Below, piece by piece: positions 18,709-54,379 of a stretch of DNA of 64,000 bases. The translations under genes and the position numbers were made by a program. The stretch comes from Treponema sp. (GTDB taxonomy: Bacteria > Spirochaetota > Spirochaetia > Treponematales > Treponemataceae), in contig JAEEIU010000027.1 of assembly GCA_016281495.1 (NCBI GenBank), forward strand, positions 62,001 through 126,000, in the 5' to 3' direction. The notes below the pieces were generated by a model. The model was not told the origin of the DNA. It saw only the letters and a program-made list of their open reading frames with translations, and ran no database searches. Within the stretch, counting starts at the first letter, position 1, and the number at the start of each line of letters is the position of its first letter.

Positions 18709-18716
18709 GAGGGGAA

Positions 18717-18938
18717 TTCATAATTCATAATTCATAATTCATAATTCATAATGAGGAATGAGGAATGAGGAATTGAGCTTGTCTTGCTGATTTGCTTTGT
18801 GTCTTGCTGGTTGGTGATTGAAAAAGAGGTTTGTCACGCGGATTATAGTTAATTCAGAATGCATAATTAAGAATTAAGAATTGGGATTGTCTTGCTGATT
18901 GGCTTTGTGTCTTGCTGGTTGGTAATTGAAAAAGAGGT
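18717..18938. repeat. AT-rich short repeats and two copies of a dispersed lead sequence
   Basis: 18717-18750 is a run of the 9-mer TTCATAATT and variants. It is followed by two near-identical ~70-bp lead sequences (about 18772-18844 and 18878-18953), both with the phrases CTTGCTGATT, CTTTGTGTCTTGCTGG and GAAAAAGAGG, separated by GCATAATTAAGAATT-type repeats. The first lead ends in a truncated element end (TTGTCACGCGGATT, 18831-18844); the second runs into the element at 18939. The same lead occurs near 22054 and 27254. No gene seen. Confidence 0.75.
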
Positions 18939-19272
18939 TTGTCACGCGGATTCGATTTTGCTACGCAAAATCCTGGTAAGAAGTTGCCTAGATGGTTGGT
19001 GTTTACATCTTGTTGTTTGGTCATTCCGGGCTTGACCCGGAATCTTAGCGTTGTATATTTTGTAGATGTTGACTCTTGCTGATTGGTATTGGAAAACTCG
19101 ATTCCCATACGTCAGTTTATATCAGAAAACTTCCACTACCCCCCAAAAAAAGCCAAACAAAAAATCCTTTAAACAAATTGCGTAGCAATTTGGAATACGT
19201 CTCTTCGAGCCGTTTGCATGAGTTGAAACTATTGAAACCGTCGCTAAAGCGACTTGCGCATCCGCGTGATAA
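18939..19272. repeat. Palindromic dispersed element, copy 1 (upstream of PD-(D/E)XK gene)
   Basis: Left end TTGTCACGCGGATTC (18939-18953), then a palindrome GATTTTGC-TAC-GCAAAATC (18954-18972), a palindrome ATTCCGGG-CTTGA-CCCGGAAT (19023-19043), a palindrome AAATTGC-GTA-GCAATTT (19175-19191) and a degenerate right end (ATCCGCGTGAT, about 19260). The remaining bases to 19362 hold CAAAAATTGTTAAAAAC, also present upstream of the gene at 27778, and an AGGAGG ribosome site. No protein gene seen between 18619 and 19362. Confidence 0.75.
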
Positions 19273-19362: not shown

Positions 19363-20205
19363 ATGCCCAAAAAGAAAAAGTCACCGTCATGGGAGGAACT
19401 CACATTTGCAAACAATTTCCTCTTCTGCAAGATAATGGAAAGCGAGCCGGAATTATGCCGACAAATCTTGGAGATACTCCTCGGCATCAGGATTGAACGA
19501 CTTGAGGCTCCCCAGGCAGAAAAGACGATGTATGAAAACATTGATTCAAAATCCGTACGTTTTGATGTCTATGCAAAGGACAGGAGGCACGTCTTTGACA
19601 TCGAGATACAGACCACGATAAACAAGAAACTACCTAAACGTGCCAGATATTACCAGAGCGTCATCGACATGGATACACTGTCCCGAGGGGACAAGTACAC
19701 CAAGCTGAAGGATTCGTATGTAATTTTTCTATGCCTCGATTCTCCGTTCAAGAAGAGCAAGCCGGTATATTTCTTTGAAAACCTATGCCGTGAAGACACA
19801 AGCATAAAATTGAACGACAGGGCCTACAAGGTCTTTTTCAATGCCTCAGAATATGCTAATATGAAAGGAGAAGAGGCAAAGAACTTCTTCAAGTACCTAA
19901 AGGAACACAGCGCCCAAAGCGCGCTGACCAAATCCATTGAGGAAAAGGTGAATTTCGCCAAGAAAAACATGACATGGAGGAAACAGTACATGACATGGGA
20001 GCAGACAATAGAAGACGAAAAAGAAGACGCATACGAGGAAGGCCTTGAAGATGGACGTGCCGAAGGAGCCTCTCAGAAAGCCATGGAAGATGCTGAAAAC
20101 CTCCTGCGGGAAGGAATACCTATGGAAACTGTTTCCCGGTGCATTGGTCTCCCACTGGAAAAAGTGCAGGAAATGTCGGAGCAATTAACAATTAAGAATT
20201 CATAA
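19363..20205 (+). CDS. PD-(D/E)XK nuclease-family (Rpn-like) putative transposase
   Basis: Member of the PDDEXK_2/Rpn group, annotated in many bacteria as recombination-promoting nucleases or transposase-like proteins. 280 residues: nuclease core in the first half with RFDVY (D68) and DIEIQ (E81, Q83) as the D...E-x-Q active site, a middle helical region, an acidic stretch, and a C-terminal tail with EGASQKAMEDAENLLREG and a helix-turn-helix-like ETVSRCIGLPLEKVQEM. Start has TTAGGAGG. The last residues (TIKNS) and the stop codon are contributed by an AT-rich repeat. Its tail is nearly identical to that of the gene at 27778 while the front halves differ more. Confidence 0.85.
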   Translation: MPKKKKSPSWEELTFANNFLFCKIMESEPELCRQILEILLGIRIERLEAPQAEKTMYENIDSKSVRFDVYAKDRRHVFDIEIQTTINKKLPKRARYYQSVIDMDTLSRGDKYTKLKDSYVIFLCLDSPFKKSKPVYFFENLCREDTSIKLNDRAYKVFFNASEYANMKGEEAKNFFKYLKEHSAQSALTKSIEEKVNFAKKNMTWRKQYMTWEQTIEDEKEDAYEEGLEDGRAEGASQKAMEDAENLLREGIPMETVSRCIGLPLEKVQEMSEQLTIKNS

Positions 20206-20248
20206 TGCATAATTAAGAATTATAAGTCAAAATTATGCATTATGAATT
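20197..20248. repeat. 18-bp inverted repeat between convergent genes
   Basis: Perfect arms 20197-20214 and 20231-20248 made of the dispersed AT-rich repeat (core CATAATGCAT). It overlaps the end of the PD-(D/E)XK gene, supplies its stop codon, and may act as a bidirectional terminator for the convergent pair, though it has no GC-rich stem. Confidence 0.7.
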
Positions 20249-20256
20249 ATGCATTC

Positions 20257-21963
20257 TTAATTATTTATGCACAAAGCGGGACATACACCGCCATACGTAT
20301 AGTCGACGTGGGGGGTGTCGGTCGCACGGCCATAGTCGTTCACATTATGCACGTACCCCATATTGAGACAGCTAGGCGAGCGAAGCCACCACCAACCAGG
20401 ATTGCCGTTGTCTGTGGTTGAGCCAATCCATGCTCCGCTTGCCTTGGCAAAGTCCGTCAGTATGCGAATCCTTCCAACATCTTTATATTGATAGTTGGAA
20501 CTAAACCCATAGTCTGTTATCGTAACCTCCCTTTCGCTCAAAAGGAAGATCTTGTCTGTGGTATTTACACAGGTATAGTTTGTTGAATATTGTGAATTTG
20601 TTCCATCAGCCTTTATTATTGCACTTGTCACAGTTGTTGTACTGGCTCCGCTGTTGTCCACAGTTGTCTCCGCGATTGTGGAACGCAACGATTCGTTAAA
20701 GGCAGTCTGAAGGAATCCCTTGCCATTGAACTCAGTGTTCACAGACTGTGTAGCATTGCTACTCGATTTTACATTATAGCTCAGACCGTTAAGATATGCC
20801 CGAATCCGGCTTTCCTTGTAGTTGTTGGGATATATTGCTCCACCCTCAGACCTGAGCACGTTCATATAATCATAATATGCACAGTTTACAAGGATGTTTT
20901 CCACAAGCAGAAGCTTTTTTCCGCTTCCGTTGTAATCCTCGGTAAGTACGCGCCACTTTATCGGCTCCACCTTAAAGTATTTGTAGCTGTCTGCACCGTC
21001 CTGGGCAACATCCTCACCATTGGTATACTTGTAACCGGCCTCGTATGCGTTCTCCTTTATCTTCGCATACCAAGCCCCGTCGCTTCCCATATAGTAGGTG
21101 AACATCCCTACTTGAACTGAAGCATCATCATAAATATCTACATTATTCGCCTTGATGGTTTGCGGCCAGTCGCCGAACAAAACATATGTCCATTCTGTTC
21201 CGGCGGTTCCGTCTGTACCTGGGTCCATCGGTTGATATGATGTACCCTGGTATTCGCTTACAGGCACCCACCTTGCATACAGCGTCAGGTTTTCCCTTAC
21301 ACCGTTTCCAAAGTCAAACTTTATGCCTTCATACTCGTCAGTATACCATCCAGAGAATGCGAATCCAGTTCTTGTTGGGTTTGTTGGCTTTGACACATTG
21401 TCGCCGCTTAAAACCGTTTGGGTTTCATACTCCGTTTCTCCATTCATGAAGGTGACTCTCAGGACCCTCCTCATCACAAGGTTCAGGGTGCTTACTTCGC
21501 CGGGGGTCATCCTTGCGTTTATGGAGCCTGTCGCATATACGCCACCGGTCGGTAAGAGCGCAGAACATTTGACCGGGTAGATTTTTTCGGCGGGTATGTT
21601 GTTTATTACCACAACCTGGCCGGCAGAAAGGGTTTCGGTGTGGATGCTTCCGTTTATGTCGATTTCAAGCTCAAAGGACAGTTCCGCTTCTATCTGGCTG
21701 TTTTCCGGGGCCTTGAAGATAATGCATGCGAAGCCGGGGTTTATTGCAATTCCGTCTGCGATTTCTTCTTCCGGTGTGTTGTCATAAACCTGAATTGTAA
21801 CTTCCTCGGTATAGTCATGCATCACTCCGTCGCAGGATGAAAGGACAAGGGCAAATGTGGCAAGAATCAGGAATAATATTGATTTGAATGTTTCATTCAG
21901 CGTTCTGTGGCTGGGGGGGGGTACAAGTGTGTAGTTATTTTTGGGATTCACATTCAGTTCCAT
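20257..21963 (-). CDS. InlB-repeat / DUF6273-like surface lipoprotein with N-terminal poly-C tract
   Basis: 568 residues. A hydrophobic signal segment ends ALVLSSC (C44), the likely lipidated cysteine. About residues 190-255 form an InlB B-type repeat (FMNGETEYETQTVLSG ... GFAFSGWYTDE ... LTLYARW). The C-terminal half resembles DUF6273 (PIKWRVL, KESRIRAYLNG, FLQTAF, KIFLLSEREV, WWLRSP, GVCPALCI). The function is unknown; such proteins are usually exported to the spirochaete surface. The start codon lies 24 codons before the hydrophobic segment and is separated from it by nine C residues encoding three prolines, so slippage there would switch the protein off. Confidence 0.82.
   Translation of the reverse strand: MELNVNPKNNYTLVPPPSHRTLNETFKSILFLILATFALVLSSCDGVMHDYTEEVTIQVYDNTPEEEIADGIAINPGFACIIFKAPENSQIEAELSFELEIDINGSIHTETLSAGQVVVINNIPAEKIYPVKCSALLPTGGVYATGSINARMTPGEVSTLNLVMRRVLRVTFMNGETEYETQTVLSGDNVSKPTNPTRTGFAFSGWYTDEYEGIKFDFGNGVRENLTLYARWVPVSEYQGTSYQPMDPGTDGTAGTEWTYVLFGDWPQTIKANNVDIYDDASVQVGMFTYYMGSDGAWYAKIKENAYEAGYKYTNGEDVAQDGADSYKYFKVEPIKWRVLTEDYNGSGKKLLLVENILVNCAYYDYMNVLRSEGGAIYPNNYKESRIRAYLNGLSYNVKSSSNATQSVNTEFNGKGFLQTAFNESLRSTIAETTVDNSGASTTTVTSAIIKADGTNSQYSTNYTCVNTTDKIFLLSEREVTITDYGFSSNYQYKDVGRIRILTDFAKASGAWIGSTTDNGNPGWWWLRSPSCLNMGYVHNVNDYGRATDTPHVDYTYGGVCPALCINN
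21913..21921. repeat. Homopolymer G9/C9 tract inside the lipoprotein start region
   Basis: Nine G on the plus strand, nine C in the coding strand, encoding Pro-Pro-Pro upstream of the signal peptide. The nine-base length keeps the frame open. Confidence 0.95.
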
Positions 21964-22113: not shown

Positions 22114-22314
22114 TTGTCACGCGGATTCGATTTTCCTACGGAAAATCTTTAAATTTTGGATGTCTGGCTGGTTGTTGTTCTCATCTTGCTTTCTGGTATA
22201 AGAAAATGTTATCCCCTACTCAAGCTTACACCAGAAAATTCCCTGAAATCACAGAGTCAACCCAAAATAAATCCTTTAAACAAATTGCGTAGCAATTTGG
22301 AATCCGCGTGACAA
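22114..22314. repeat. MITE-like element with perfect 15-bp inverted ends, copy 2
   Basis: Left end TTGTCACGCGGATTC (22114-22128), right end its exact reverse complement (22300-22314), total 201 bp. Each end is joined to a palindrome: GATTTTCC-TAC-GGAAAATC (22129-22147) on the left and AAATTGC-GTA-GCAATTT (22282-22298) on the right. A central imperfect inverted repeat (CTGGTATAAG with CTTACACCAG, one mismatch) spans about 22193-22234. No open reading frame. The flanking stretch 22054-22113 is the same lead sequence as at 18772 and 27254. Confidence 0.85.
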
Positions 22315-27212: not shown

Positions 27213-27221
27213 AGGGAAAGT

Positions 27222-27684
27222 TAATTAAGAATTAAGAATGCATAATTAAGAATTGGGGTTGTCGGGTTAGTTTGCTTTGTGTCTTGCTGGATGGCCAATG
27301 AAAAAAAAAGTGTTGTCACGCGGATTCGAGATTTCTACGAAATCTCTTTAAATGTTGGTTGTGTTGCTGATTTTTTTTATCTTGCTGGATGGTGATTGAA
27401 AAAAGTCTTTGTCACACGGATTCGAAATGCCTACGGCATTTCCCGATAAAGAGTTATCTGGCTGATTGGTATTTTCATCTTGTTTTATGGTATAAGAAAA
27501 CGATATCCTCTTATACCAGCAAACTTCCACTAATCCCAGAACCAAACAAACACAAATCCTTTTAAAGAATAACACTCGAATGTACTGCAGAGTTTTGATG
27601 TTTTTTCCAAAGGAAAAATGCGAGCCTTCGCGAGCAAAGCAAAACTCTTTAGCAAGCGCAAGCTTGCGTCAATCCGCGTGACAA
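27222..27684. repeat. Composite dispersed repeat, copy 3 (upstream of PD-(D/E)XK gene)
   Basis: AT-rich ATTAAGAATG repeats (27222-27253), the ~60-bp lead sequence, then two element left ends: TTGTCACGCGGATTC (27313-27327) with palindrome GAGATTTC-TAC-GAAATCTC (27328-27346), and TTGTCACaCGGATTC (27409-27423) with palindrome GAAATGCC-TAC-GGCATTTC (27424-27442). Further in are GGTATAAGA / TCTTATACC (about 27488-27516) and the branched element at 27590-27667. The right end AATCCGCGTGACAA is at 27671-27684. No gene is seen from 27213 to 27777; the last 90 bases carry CAAAAATTGTTAAAAAC as upstream of 19363. Confidence 0.8.
27590..27667. repeat. Branched palindromic element, copy A
   Basis: Outer stem GAGTTTTG (27590-27597) with CAAAACTC (27640-27647) enclosing two hairpins, TTTTTCC-AAA-GGAAAAA (27602-27618) and GCGA-GCCT-TCGC (27620-27631), followed by GCAAGC-GCAA-GCTTGC (27652-27667), whose loop is a GNRA tetraloop. 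Copies B and C lie at 52200 and 52732. Confidence 0.8.
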
Positions 27685-51682: not shown

Positions 51683-51902
51683 TTAATTAAGAATTAAGAA
51701 TGCATAATTCATAATTCATAATTAAAAGTTGTCACGCGGATTCGATTTTGCTAACGCAAAATCTTTAAATTTGAGTTATCTTGTGAGGGTGGCTTTGTGT
51801 CTTGCGTGTGGGTCATTACGTGGGTGGGGTACGTCATTGATGTGGGTGCGGGTATGTCATTGCCGGACTTGATCCGGCAATCTCTCTCTAACCTGTCATG
51901 TC
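51683..51902. repeat. Composite dispersed repeat, copy 4
   Basis: AT-rich TTAAGAATTAAG and ATTCATAATTCAT units (51683-51724), then the element end TTGTCACGCGGATTC (51729-51743) with palindrome GATTTTGC-TAAC-GCAAAATC (51744-51763) and a lead-like GCTTTGTGTCTTGC. A palindrome ATTGCCGGA-CTTGA-TCCGGCAAT follows at 51859-51881. No matching right end was found before the broken PD-(D/E)XK gene. The rest to 52054 holds TTTTTGTCAAAAAC and a TATATATA stretch, which probably form the promoter of that gene. No protein gene seen. Confidence 0.72.
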
Positions 51903-52199
51903 AACGGAAGTCCGGGATGACGTTGCACTCAAAATTTCCACAAGTATTCATTTTTTTCAAATTTTTTGCCAAATTTTTGTCAAAAACCCCTACCCTGATA
52001 CTATATATATAGCAACGGGAAGTTATTTCCCAAAACTATTTCAAGGAGCATCAGATGGACTTTACGATTAAACCCCAGCGGGAATACAAAGACAGGTTGT
52101 TCAAGGCCATCTTCGGCAGGAACACAGATTAATTCATAATTCATAATGCGTAATTCATAATTATATTTTTCCATACAGATTGCATTACATGAATATAAA

Positions 52200-52288
52200 G
52201 GGAGTTTTTTCGTTTTTTTGCCTGCAAAAAATGCGAGTCTTCGCGAGCAAGTAAAAACTCCAAGAGCAAGCTTTAGCTTGCGACAGGA
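52200..52288. repeat. Branched palindromic element, copy B
   Basis: Outer stem GGAGTTTTT (52201-52209) with AAAAACTCC (52253-52261); inner hairpins TTTTTTGC/GCAAAAAA (52214-52231) and GCGA-GTCT-TCGC (52233-52244); then GCAAGCT-TT-AGCTTGC (52266-52281) and CGACAGGA. One frame is open through the element and joins in frame with part 2 of the broken gene. Confidence 0.82.
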
Positions 52289-52731
52289 ACAGCAATCCAG
52301 CCATAACCAGAATATGGCTCTTAGAGGATTCCTATACTTTTCCCAACTTTATCAGATTTACCTTGCAAGAAATGAGCTGGACATGAACCGAAGCAAAAAG
52401 ATTGAGATTTCCACCCCAAGCTTCGTCGTTTTCTACAACGGCTCATCAAGAACGGAAGATGAGTTTGAGATAAGGCTGTCGGACTCCTTCATTCACGGAA
52501 AACAGACCCCTTCCGGAGCTTATGAATGGACAGCCTACGTCAAGAACATCAACGAAAATCACAGTGGGGGACTTCAAAAAAACTGCAATGCGTTGTATGA
52601 TTACAGCAGGTTCGTTGGAAAAGTACGGCGCAACAAAGAGAGCGGAATGGTGATTCGGGATGCGGTGAACAGAGCCGTCAACATGGCGATAAGGGAAAAT
52701 CTTCTGGACGGCTTTTTCATATTTTACAGGT

Positions 52732-52820
52732 GAGTTTTTACGTTTTTTTGCGACAGCAAAAAATGCGAGCCCTCGCGAGCAAGTAAAAACTCAAAGAGCA
52801 AGCTTTAGCTTGCGGCAGGA
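52732..52820. repeat. Branched palindromic element, copy C
   Basis: Outer stem GAGTTTTTAC (52732-52741) with GTAAAAACTC (52783-52792); hairpins TTTTTTGC-GACA-GCAAAAAA (52744-52763) and GCGAG-CC-CTCGC (52765-52776 approx.); then GCAAGCT-TT-AGCTTGC (52798-52813) and GGCAGGAGG, which supplies a ribosome site. Confidence 0.85.
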
Positions 52821-53068
52821 GGTAGATTTTGGCAAACTCTTTGACAGAATTTGACGCGGAGGAAGCATACAGGGACATTCGGGAAGACGGCTACGAGGAA
52901 GGATATTCTCAAGGAGCCTCCCAGAAAGCCGTGGAAGACGCTGAGAACCTTTTGAGAATGGGAATGGGAACCGATGATCAAATCTCTAAGGCAATCGGTC
53001 TCCCCCTTGAGCAGGTGAAAGAGATTTCGGAGCGAATTGGTAATTCATAGTTACGAACATATAACCGA

Positions 53069-53093
53069 GAGTTTTTACGTTTTTTTGCGACAG
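53069..53093. repeat. Branched palindromic element, truncated copy D
   Basis: Only the first 25 nt of the element (GAGTTTTTACG, then seven T, GCGACAG) remain, directly joined to GAGGAAA, which acts as the ribosome site of the next gene. Looks like a deletion between the GCGACAG and GCGGCAG repeats inside one copy. Confidence 0.7.
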
Positions 53094-53107
53094 GAGGAAA
53101 AAGATAA

Positions 53108-54379
53108 ATGTGGAAAAGCAAGAAAATCACTTTCGCTGTTTTCATCGCCTTTACCATGGCGGCATCAGCTTTTGCAAACGGGGGCATACGCTGGTACTGG
53201 AATGCGACGGGAACTCCACCTGCCGAAATAACGCTGAAAAACGACGCTGACATCAGCCTTAAAAAGGAAAACCTAACCCTGCGCTTTGTGGATGACAGTG
53301 TAATCGTGGACTGCGACTACATCCTCTTTAACAAAAGCGGATCCGACAAGCAGATAGAATTTGCATTCAACATCACGGATGCCTACAACGACTCTCTTAT
53401 TTACTACTCAATTTTTCTTAACGGGGAAAAAATTCCCTCAGATTTCCACAAGGAAACCAGCTGGGACGAAATAGAGTCGGTATATAAATTCTGGGAACTT
53501 TCAAAACTGACACTCGCTTCAAAAAAGGAAAGCAAAGTCTCAGTCACTTACCGCGTTCAGACATCCAACGACGGAATGCATTACGCAAATAAATTCAATG
53601 ACAATAGCTTTATATACAACCTTTATCCTGCATTGAGTTTCGGAAACGGAATAATAGAAGACTTCAACATAACTGTTGACATTACCGACATACTAAGCTG
53701 GGGTGGAAAGCTTAAGAAAATCGAGGGAATTGATCTTAGCTTTAATAACTCTGACAGGATACTCTCCAGGCATTATTCAAACTTTGACCTGAACAAGCAC
53801 AGGCAGCTCAAGATAACATACAACATAAAGAACTGGTATTTCAGGAGCCTCTACGAACAGTATGCAAAATATCCAGTAATCAATGCGGACTCTGAGCTAA
53901 CAGAGGGAAAAACAATTTACGCAGCCGCAAACATGAGTGATCACAATTGCGACACAGCATGGGTTGAAGGAAAAAGCGATTTCGGTAAAGGGCAGAAAAT
54001 CAAGATAAACATAAAAGGCTGGATAACACAGGTCCTGCTTGTAAACGGTTTTAGGAAAACAGAGAAAACCTTCTACGAAAACAACCGCATAAAGAGGATT
54101 GCGCTGTACGTTGACGGAGTACGGCTGGGCGAGATGGAATTCCCAGACAGGAAATACTGCAGGGTTGACATGACCAACATACTCGACGAGGGCGAGCTTT
54201 TGAATCTTGGTGATTTCTTCGGGGAAAACAACCTTTCAAAAGTACTGCAATCGGGAAGGGGCTTCATTTCTGATTCCAACATAGAAATTGAGATTCTGGA
54301 CGTATACCGGGGAACGAAATACAATGACACCTGCGTATCGGATATCTATGTTATAGCAGCCCAGATACCCATACCATAA
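53108..54379 (+). CDS. Secreted protein with DUF4424-like and glycan-binding-like domains
   Basis: 423 residues. Signal peptide ending ASAFA. The first 250 mature residues (ISLKKENLTLRFVDDSVIVDCDYILFN, YFRSLYEQYAKYP) look like a beta-sandwich of the DUF4424 kind. The C-terminal about 150 residues (ANMSDHNCDTAWVEGKSDFGKGQKIKI ... GRGFISDSNIEIEILDVYRG) match the F5/8-type NADase-associated glycan-binding module. Predicted periplasmic or surface; ligand unknown. ATG follows AGGAGG derived next to a truncated repeat. Confidence 0.75.
   Translation: MWKSKKITFAVFIAFTMAASAFANGGIRWYWNATGTPPAEITLKNDADISLKKENLTLRFVDDSVIVDCDYILFNKSGSDKQIEFAFNITDAYNDSLIYYSIFLNGEKIPSDFHKETSWDEIESVYKFWELSKLTLASKKESKVSVTYRVQTSNDGMHYANKFNDNSFIYNLYPALSFGNGIIEDFNITVDITDILSWGGKLKKIEGIDLSFNNSDRILSRHYSNFDLNKHRQLKITYNIKNWYFRSLYEQYAKYPVINADSELTEGKTIYAAANMSDHNCDTAWVEGKSDFGKGQKIKINIKGWITQVLLVNGFRKTEKTFYENNRIKRIALYVDGVRLGEMEFPDRKYCRVDMTNILDEGELLNLGDFFGENNLSKVLQSGRGFISDSNIEIEILDVYRGTKYNDTCVSDIYVIAAQIPIP

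Follow-up and report, generated by a model that had tools for sequence, protein, structure and literature searches.

The window, a stretch of 64,000 nucleotides, corresponds to G000:C36:62001-126000 in a genome (G000) of 3.2 Mb and 61 contigs. It contains a remnant rpn gene interrupted by two copies of a short structured repeat, which we call E; the E copies and the parts of the interrupted rpn gene that are located in the window below lie on the plus strand. The order is N-terminal rpn remnant, copy B, middle part of rpn, copy C, AGGAGG and rpnS. The N-terminal remnant (52055..52132, MDFTIKPQREYKDRLFKAIFGRNTD*) matches the intact Rpn of a second species, G009 (...HYKDRLFISIFGKDND). In the window the gene is broken, the remnant stops and about 80 residues are gone. 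Copy B (52201..52284) is identical in G009. From it an open frame (52218..52733) runs into the middle part of rpn and ends at the TGA with which copy C (52731..52816) starts. Copy C marks the boundary between the main part of rpn and its rpnS part: it supplies the upstream stop, and an AGGAGG Shine-Dalgarno sequence (52817..52822) follows immediately 3′ of it, ahead of the start of a separate rpnS-like antitoxin ORF (52829..53050, 73 aa, LANSLTEFDAEEAYRD...). In the rpn family TIGR01784 this ORF corresponds to the C-terminal part (family match at G000:C36:114871-115026).

A truncated fourth E (53069..53094, partial match L022) retains half of hairpin 1 and, from the outer stem, the 5′ arm; directly 3′ of it stands GAGGAAAAAGATAAATG, and the sequence suggests that the missing part was lost by internal deletion, apparently between two GCGACAG motifs. 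Downstream of it a gene at 53108-54379 encodes a C-terminal NADase_transloc domain (PF25302, E-value 6.6e-23). Copy A (27589..27670) lies far from the other copies, upstream of another rpn gene, which is of PDDEXK_2 type. On the 3′ side the copy passes into AATCCGCGTGACAA; this sequence forms the right arm of a larger inverted-repeat unit (27313-27684), which is bounded by TTGTCACGCGGATT...AATCCGCGTGACAA and has copy A at its right end. Relatives of this unit were seen at 18939, 22114-22314 and 51729, and the unit recurs upstream of rpn genes. Short heptamer-like runs of ATTCATAATTCATAATGC/ATTAAGAAT, which often adjoin rpn genes and E, occur at 18716-18766, 20183-20268, 27217-27253, 51686-51735 and 52131-52168.

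E is a repeat of about 80-87 bp (about 84) with four paired stems. An 11-bp outer stem, counted with its flanking pair, encloses two hairpins, and a third hairpin follows. The order common to copies A, B and C is base -1 plus GAGTTTTNNN (the 5′ arm of the outer stem, P1), hairpin P2 (T-run/A-run), hairpin P3 (TGC-GA-GC-CTTC-GC-GA-GCA), the 3′ arm of P1, a short linker, hairpin P4 (GCAAGC..GCTTGC) and GAC. In the family as a whole the bases after the 3′ hairpin are GAC, GTC or GGC, and the trailing motif is TGCGAC in 73/127 and TGCGTC in 13/127. The base outside GAG and the base after CTC can form a Watson-Crick pair in 93 of 121 copies (shuffled 37, maximum 51), whereas the next position outwards gave no covariation signal; pairing at the first offset and none at the second fixes the 5′ border of E. 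The core pattern has three matches in the window (0.04 expected). An earlier note on this DNA had proposed that A, B and C share a branched fold of about 89 bp. All three copies were found, and they refolded better than shuffled sequences; the element stood, but its length had included neighbouring bases. In a reduced E downstream of a GGGtGRT gene (L189), P1 and P4 are present without P2 and P3 and still precede a copy of the gene end, a hint that P2 and P3 may be dispensable.

The paired changes that the same note had seen in the outer stem and in hairpin 1 proved to be a property of the family. When 27 copies were aligned unguided with MAFFT, 96.4% of the cells were paired, and double changes occurred in 76 cells, compared with 24.6 +/- 4.5 in shuffled alignments and 3-9 with slid partners. 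In 83 copies aligned to a covariance model there were 263 double changes (shuffled 69 +/- 11.5), although this alignment leans towards the structure, its model having been built from the first set. Positions 8-10 of P1 show up to four pair types, P2 alternates between GC, CG, AU and UA, and in P3 C-G is swapped to G-C while the intervening GA/GA steps are unchanged.

Pairing of this kind could be maintained in RNA or in DNA. If E were a structured RNA (a terminator, a stability element or an rpnS leader) retained for its RNA function, one could point to the tandem GA/GA with covarying pairs on either side, to the rpnS ribosome-binding site directly 3′ of E, and to the ends of long ORFs ahead of E, which are more often sense than antisense (23 versus 7). 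However, G-U pairs are almost missing from the stems (about 31 of about 2,260 paired cells in the 83 copies, versus the 263 double Watson-Crick changes), and the folding z-scores against shuffles are better with DNA parameters (A -3.9, B -3.2, C -5.0) than with RNA parameters (A -2.5, B -1.5, C -3.3). No Rfam family matched in the whole window or in the region of copies B and C, which was searched to E-values ≤1. The E strand has no terminator-like T-run, the contexts are diverse, and the orientation relative to shorter ORFs is balanced (28 sense and 24 antisense for ORFs of at least 80 codons). We regard the RNA explanation as quite improbable. The scarcity of G-U pairs and the better DNA z-scores favour selection on pairing as DNA rather than RNA, which is suggestive but not proof.

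The frame of copy B is open and fused to rpn codons (LPAKNASLREQVKTPRASFSLRQEQQSSHNQNMALRG...), in agreement with the description of copy B as inserted in a gene with one frame open. The comparison with Rickettsia palindromic elements, which had been drawn from this frame, stood in part. Like E, those elements are about 100 bp long, palindromic and capable of in-frame gene fusion (PMC2229807). Besides copy B we found one clear in-frame host: the E copy at G000:C31:23907 (L123) lies in frame inside an intact 369-codon PDDEXK_2/rpn ORF, where about 30 E-encoded residues stand in for about 20 residues of uninserted homologues. The host of copy B, as described above, is broken. E has no conserved open frame: the best plus-strand frame is open in 66 of 120 unique copies, and the six frames are similarly open (57-79). 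Unlike the Rickettsia elements, E lies mostly at gene ends and beside rpn; many copies stand just past stop codons, with upstream DNA repeated behind them. In the review PMC2229807 the target duplication of the Rickettsia elements is marked '?', and no mention of a repeat of upstream DNA was found there. That E is a Rickettsia-type element spreading chiefly via coding sequence is therefore very unlikely, the in-frame cases notwithstanding.

The covariance model found 25 copies of E in the genome of the window. The genus was sampled with 196 genomes (MAGs of ruminant and gut Treponema), and 142 of these have matches. The E-values of the model are rough; the genomes with most matches had at least about 21 each among the matches listed. 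In other genera of the family 1 of 53 genomes had a match (at 1e-6), and viral, phage and plasmid sequences gave none. A search of GTDB species genomes with the exact core pattern returned 32 contigs, all from Treponema or Spirochaetaceae MAGs, several of them from rumen. Most of the genomes are fragmented MAGs, and contigs frequently stop at E. Many of the further copies share the stems and lie in unrelated contexts; the family is thus not limited to the three copies of the earlier note, nor to one identical context.

The flanks of 127 distinct copies were compared by setting the bases after GCTTGCGAC against as many as 450 bases ahead of E. A repeat of upstream DNA, beginning no more than 2 nt from where E ends on its 3′ side, was present in the right flank of 47 of 122 testable copies; none of the shuffled right flanks reached the score cut-off. 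The DNA repeated behind E is mostly the 3′ end of the host gene, over 17-60 bp (about 220-300 bp at rpn). At an ilvD end (L153) an identical 26-bp repeat stands on either side of one E; at the end of a flavoprotein-like gene (L127) the repeat is 35 bp with 2 differences, and at a transketolase-like gene end (L113) FTAEKLAELLAK is repeated as FTAEELAKVLAK, both names being readings of the translated ends. In about half of the copies no repeat was detectable, including copy C and L123 at their own sites; such copies may be either old or the product of a different mode.

[Gene end-E] units form tandem arrays, the largest with 8 E (L097). Ends of the GGGtGRT gene (PF14057; ...AVAVAGSF*) occur with 1-5 E serially in at least 6 species (L121, L111, L098, L100, L103, L112), with arrays of 3-4 E in several species and of 5 E at L098. 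At two loci downstream of this gene (L183, L198) a different structured repeat (GCCGCTCGCTAGTCTCGCGGCGAGCCGTTCTTTCGATGAACC...AACGGTTCTTCGATT) has a diverged copy of the gene 3′ end behind it, so that the GGGtGRT gene end is a hotspot shared by at least two element families. At three others (L188, L205, L207) there is a third element type, a GCCCGATAAATCGGGC palindrome with copies of the gene end on both sides, inverted on the left and direct on the right. A strict rule by which E always lies after a gene and in sense was rejected, as only the longer ORFs show the skew and the piece repeated in the L149 array is part of an opposite-strand tRNA-Met gene.

Microhomology was rejected as the basis of the joints, since 23 of 34 have none. 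At independent joints other than GGGtGRT a G stands at position +3 to the right in 14 of 23 (5.6 expected, P 1e-4), and at GGGtGRT joints in 9 of 10. G is also favoured at -1, just left of the joint, so that the preference reads G|NNG. A target preference of this kind argues for an enzyme. An empty site was found in G009, where the end of the same flavoprotein-like gene lacks E and continues like the right-hand copy of G000 (L127 compared with L211). This comparison of hosts with and without the insert, which had been proposed as a check, indicates that the left end was added together with E, and that the native end of the gene is the right-hand one.

Could these patterns have arisen by tandem duplication only? 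E would then be an old, hardly mobile 3′-UTR or intergenic element, multiplied by slippage or template switching at its hairpin and by unequal crossing-over between strains. Most array units are indeed an upstream piece followed by E, as tandem duplication predicts, and a unit may contain an opposite-strand tRNA (L149). The GGGtGRT ends also fit, because their differences demand exchange between strains: three pairs show 16 synonymous and 0 non-synonymous differences over 34 codons, including TCA/AGC serine swaps, and simple duplication followed by drift in a dead copy cannot explain this. Judging from these sequences, there must have been an exchange with other strains' alleles that involved either the GGGtGRT end next to E or the whole E-bearing end. 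The model does not account as well for the empty site, for the many loci where a single E has a repeat and no second E is present (L127, L153), for the joints without microhomology, for the G|NNG preference, or for the at least 8 different E joints found in one gene. We judge it unlikely. The identical repeats at L153 favour duplication upon insertion. Exchange was also visible between species: G009 is 100% identical to the window through copy B and identity falls abruptly a few bases past its 3′ end, so that exchange between species, too, has its border at the 3′ end of E. The rpn part after copy B is diverged in G009, and there is no E at the site of copy C.

E is strongly associated with rpn. 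In the window's own genome 11 of the 25 copies have an Rpn (TIGR01784) match no more than 1 kb away, where 0.41 would be expected (P 8e-14). The assignment is based on TIGR01784 and PF12784 matches and on separate rpnS ORFs with AGGAGG-type sites; these are PD-(D/E)XK rpn genes whose C-terminal part is predicted to be separately translatable. Intragenic toxin-antitoxin genes of this type, RpnL/RpnS, were described in 2023, with rpnS also as a separate downstream gene (PMC10327210), and both arrangements occur here. E marks the joint between rpn and additional copies of its antitoxin gene rpnS, copy C being one such joint. At three loci (L126, L119, L125) a full rpn gene is followed by E and by a second rpnS with its own Shine-Dalgarno sequence and start. 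The second rpnS is of the same type at L126, has the same start with a different tail at L119 and belongs to a different rpnS family at L125; at L108 the order is E-rpnS-E-rpnS-E. The codon changes at L126 are mostly synonymous (18, versus 3 non-synonymous), so that both rpnS copies look functional.

For Rpn, RecA-independent recombination has been reported and template switching proposed (PMC5350276). The recombination that creates the downstream rpnS was left unexplained in PMC10327210, where RpnL was suggested as a possible initiator. No structured element at the rpn-rpnS joint was found described in these two papers; here it is E. It is tempting to consider Rpn, as a nuclease with a proposed role in recombination, a candidate partner of E. 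As an obligatory partner it was rejected: three genomes (G039, G068, G100) have E without an Rpn match at 1e-10, which suggests that Rpn is not strictly required, with the proviso that these MAGs are incomplete.

Among known repeats, GTAG- and CGTC-tagged REPs resemble E in being palindromic, multi-copy and sometimes intragenic; CGTC repeats occur in Spirochaetes without a dedicated transposase (PMC3733652), and the E copies ending in TGCGTC recall them. REPs are single hairpins of 20-40 bp, often in head-to-head dimers (PMC3733652), whereas E has a branched unit and a hairpin in constant order and repeats upstream DNA. A CGTC-tagged REP, a hairpin with a single 8-9 bp stem and an unpaired CGTC, was rejected because E is branched and its TGCGAC tail prevails. 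The GTAG REP/RAYT class requires a Y1_Tnp/RAYT transposase in the genome, and PF01797 is absent from the window's own genome. As a mobiliser, IS200/RAYT was rejected because PF01797 is absent (E-value ≤1e-8) from that genome and from other E-rich genomes such as G005, G009, G072, G125 and G203; it is present in 51/196 genomes of the genus.

Closest to E in behaviour is YPAL/RU-2 of Yersinia, an enterobacterial repeat of 168 bp (PMC2229807). It is, like E, a small non-coding mobile repeat with internal inverted repeats and empty and filled sites, and its target duplications vary in length (3-26 bp). The repeats of E are longer (to about 300 bp at rpn) and extend from a fixed 3′ end, and gene-end arrays or antitoxin copies were not found described for YPAL/RU-2 in the passages of PMC2229807 consulted. 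With dispersed non-coding copies below 200 bp and empty and filled sites, E belongs to the broad MITE-like class; a fixed short target duplication was not found, the duplications being variable, and no parent transposon sharing terminal inverted repeats with E was seen in the loci examined. E lacks a defining feature of each of REPs, Rickettsia elements and attC, which places it among the small palindromic mobile repeats, as a new family with unusual array-forming behaviour.

The likeness to attC sites is considerable: a folded site stands at the 3′ end of serial units in which the gene precedes the site, and the 3′ joint is precise. E could accordingly be an attC-like folded-strand site, with [gene end-E] and [rpnS-E] cassettes that a tyrosine-type recombinase other than IntI would excise and insert at the 3′ end of E. 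Its structure is more conserved than its sequence, units are arrayed serially with E, and E-rpnS units open with a ribosome-binding site directly past the preceding E. Yet E has no attC R boxes, the 5′ starts of the units differ widely, and the units are gene ends and not whole genes, except for rpnS. The integron attC itself was rejected, as IntI (TIGR02249) is absent from the E-rich genomes G000, G009, G072 and G125; it is present in some genomes without an E match (e.g. G001, G054), and no candidate recombinase was found. We judge the attC-like model unlikely. Integron integrases above the TIGR02249 cut-off occur in 57/196 genomes of the genus (e.g. L136, L137). It is equally a long shot that E is the recombination site of a new cassette-type system of Treponema, in which [gene end-E] or [rpnS-E] would be inserted serially at G|NNG and the folded DNA strand recognised by a putative, possibly Rpn-assisted enzyme.

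The explanation that we consider somewhat probable is that E is a non-coding palindromic DNA repeat which is mobile, confined to this genus and inserted enzymatically with duplication of a target stretch. No mobilising gene was found, integron integrase and IS200/RAYT transposase both being missing from the window's own genome, and repeat length is much more variable than with ordinary transposases. The copies that lack a repeat also count against it, as do the GGGtGRT ends, for which recombination with foreign alleles has to be assumed in addition. Folded single-stranded E DNA, a three-way junction with a 3′ hairpin, is probably the form recognised. A putative enzyme would cut at G|NNG and join the 3′ end of E there; the other side would be resolved some distance downstream, duplicating a variable stretch of target. 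Upon insertion near a stop codon the gene end would stay intact and a spare end would remain behind E. Later rounds would produce arrays, and recombination between strains would swap the ends. At rpn, rpnS would be appended or split off behind E with its own ribosome-binding site; because an antitoxin is gained in this way, selection may keep such events.

If the cassette-type reading were true, Treponema would possess interchangeable C-terminal ends and stockpiles of antitoxin variants, and would turn over its antitoxins in an integron-like way with neither IntI nor attC. Spare gene ends could be made by way of a small repeat whose 3′ end is fixed, which duplicates the gene end beside it, leaves the gene whole and builds arrays; no description of such a route was found in PMC3733652, PMC10327210 and PMC5350276 or in the part of PMC2229807 available. 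The origin of the stand-alone downstream rpnS is an open question in PMC10327210. E marks the joint in many independent cases, and with a defined 84-bp element at the joint the process that generates rpnS becomes traceable and testable.
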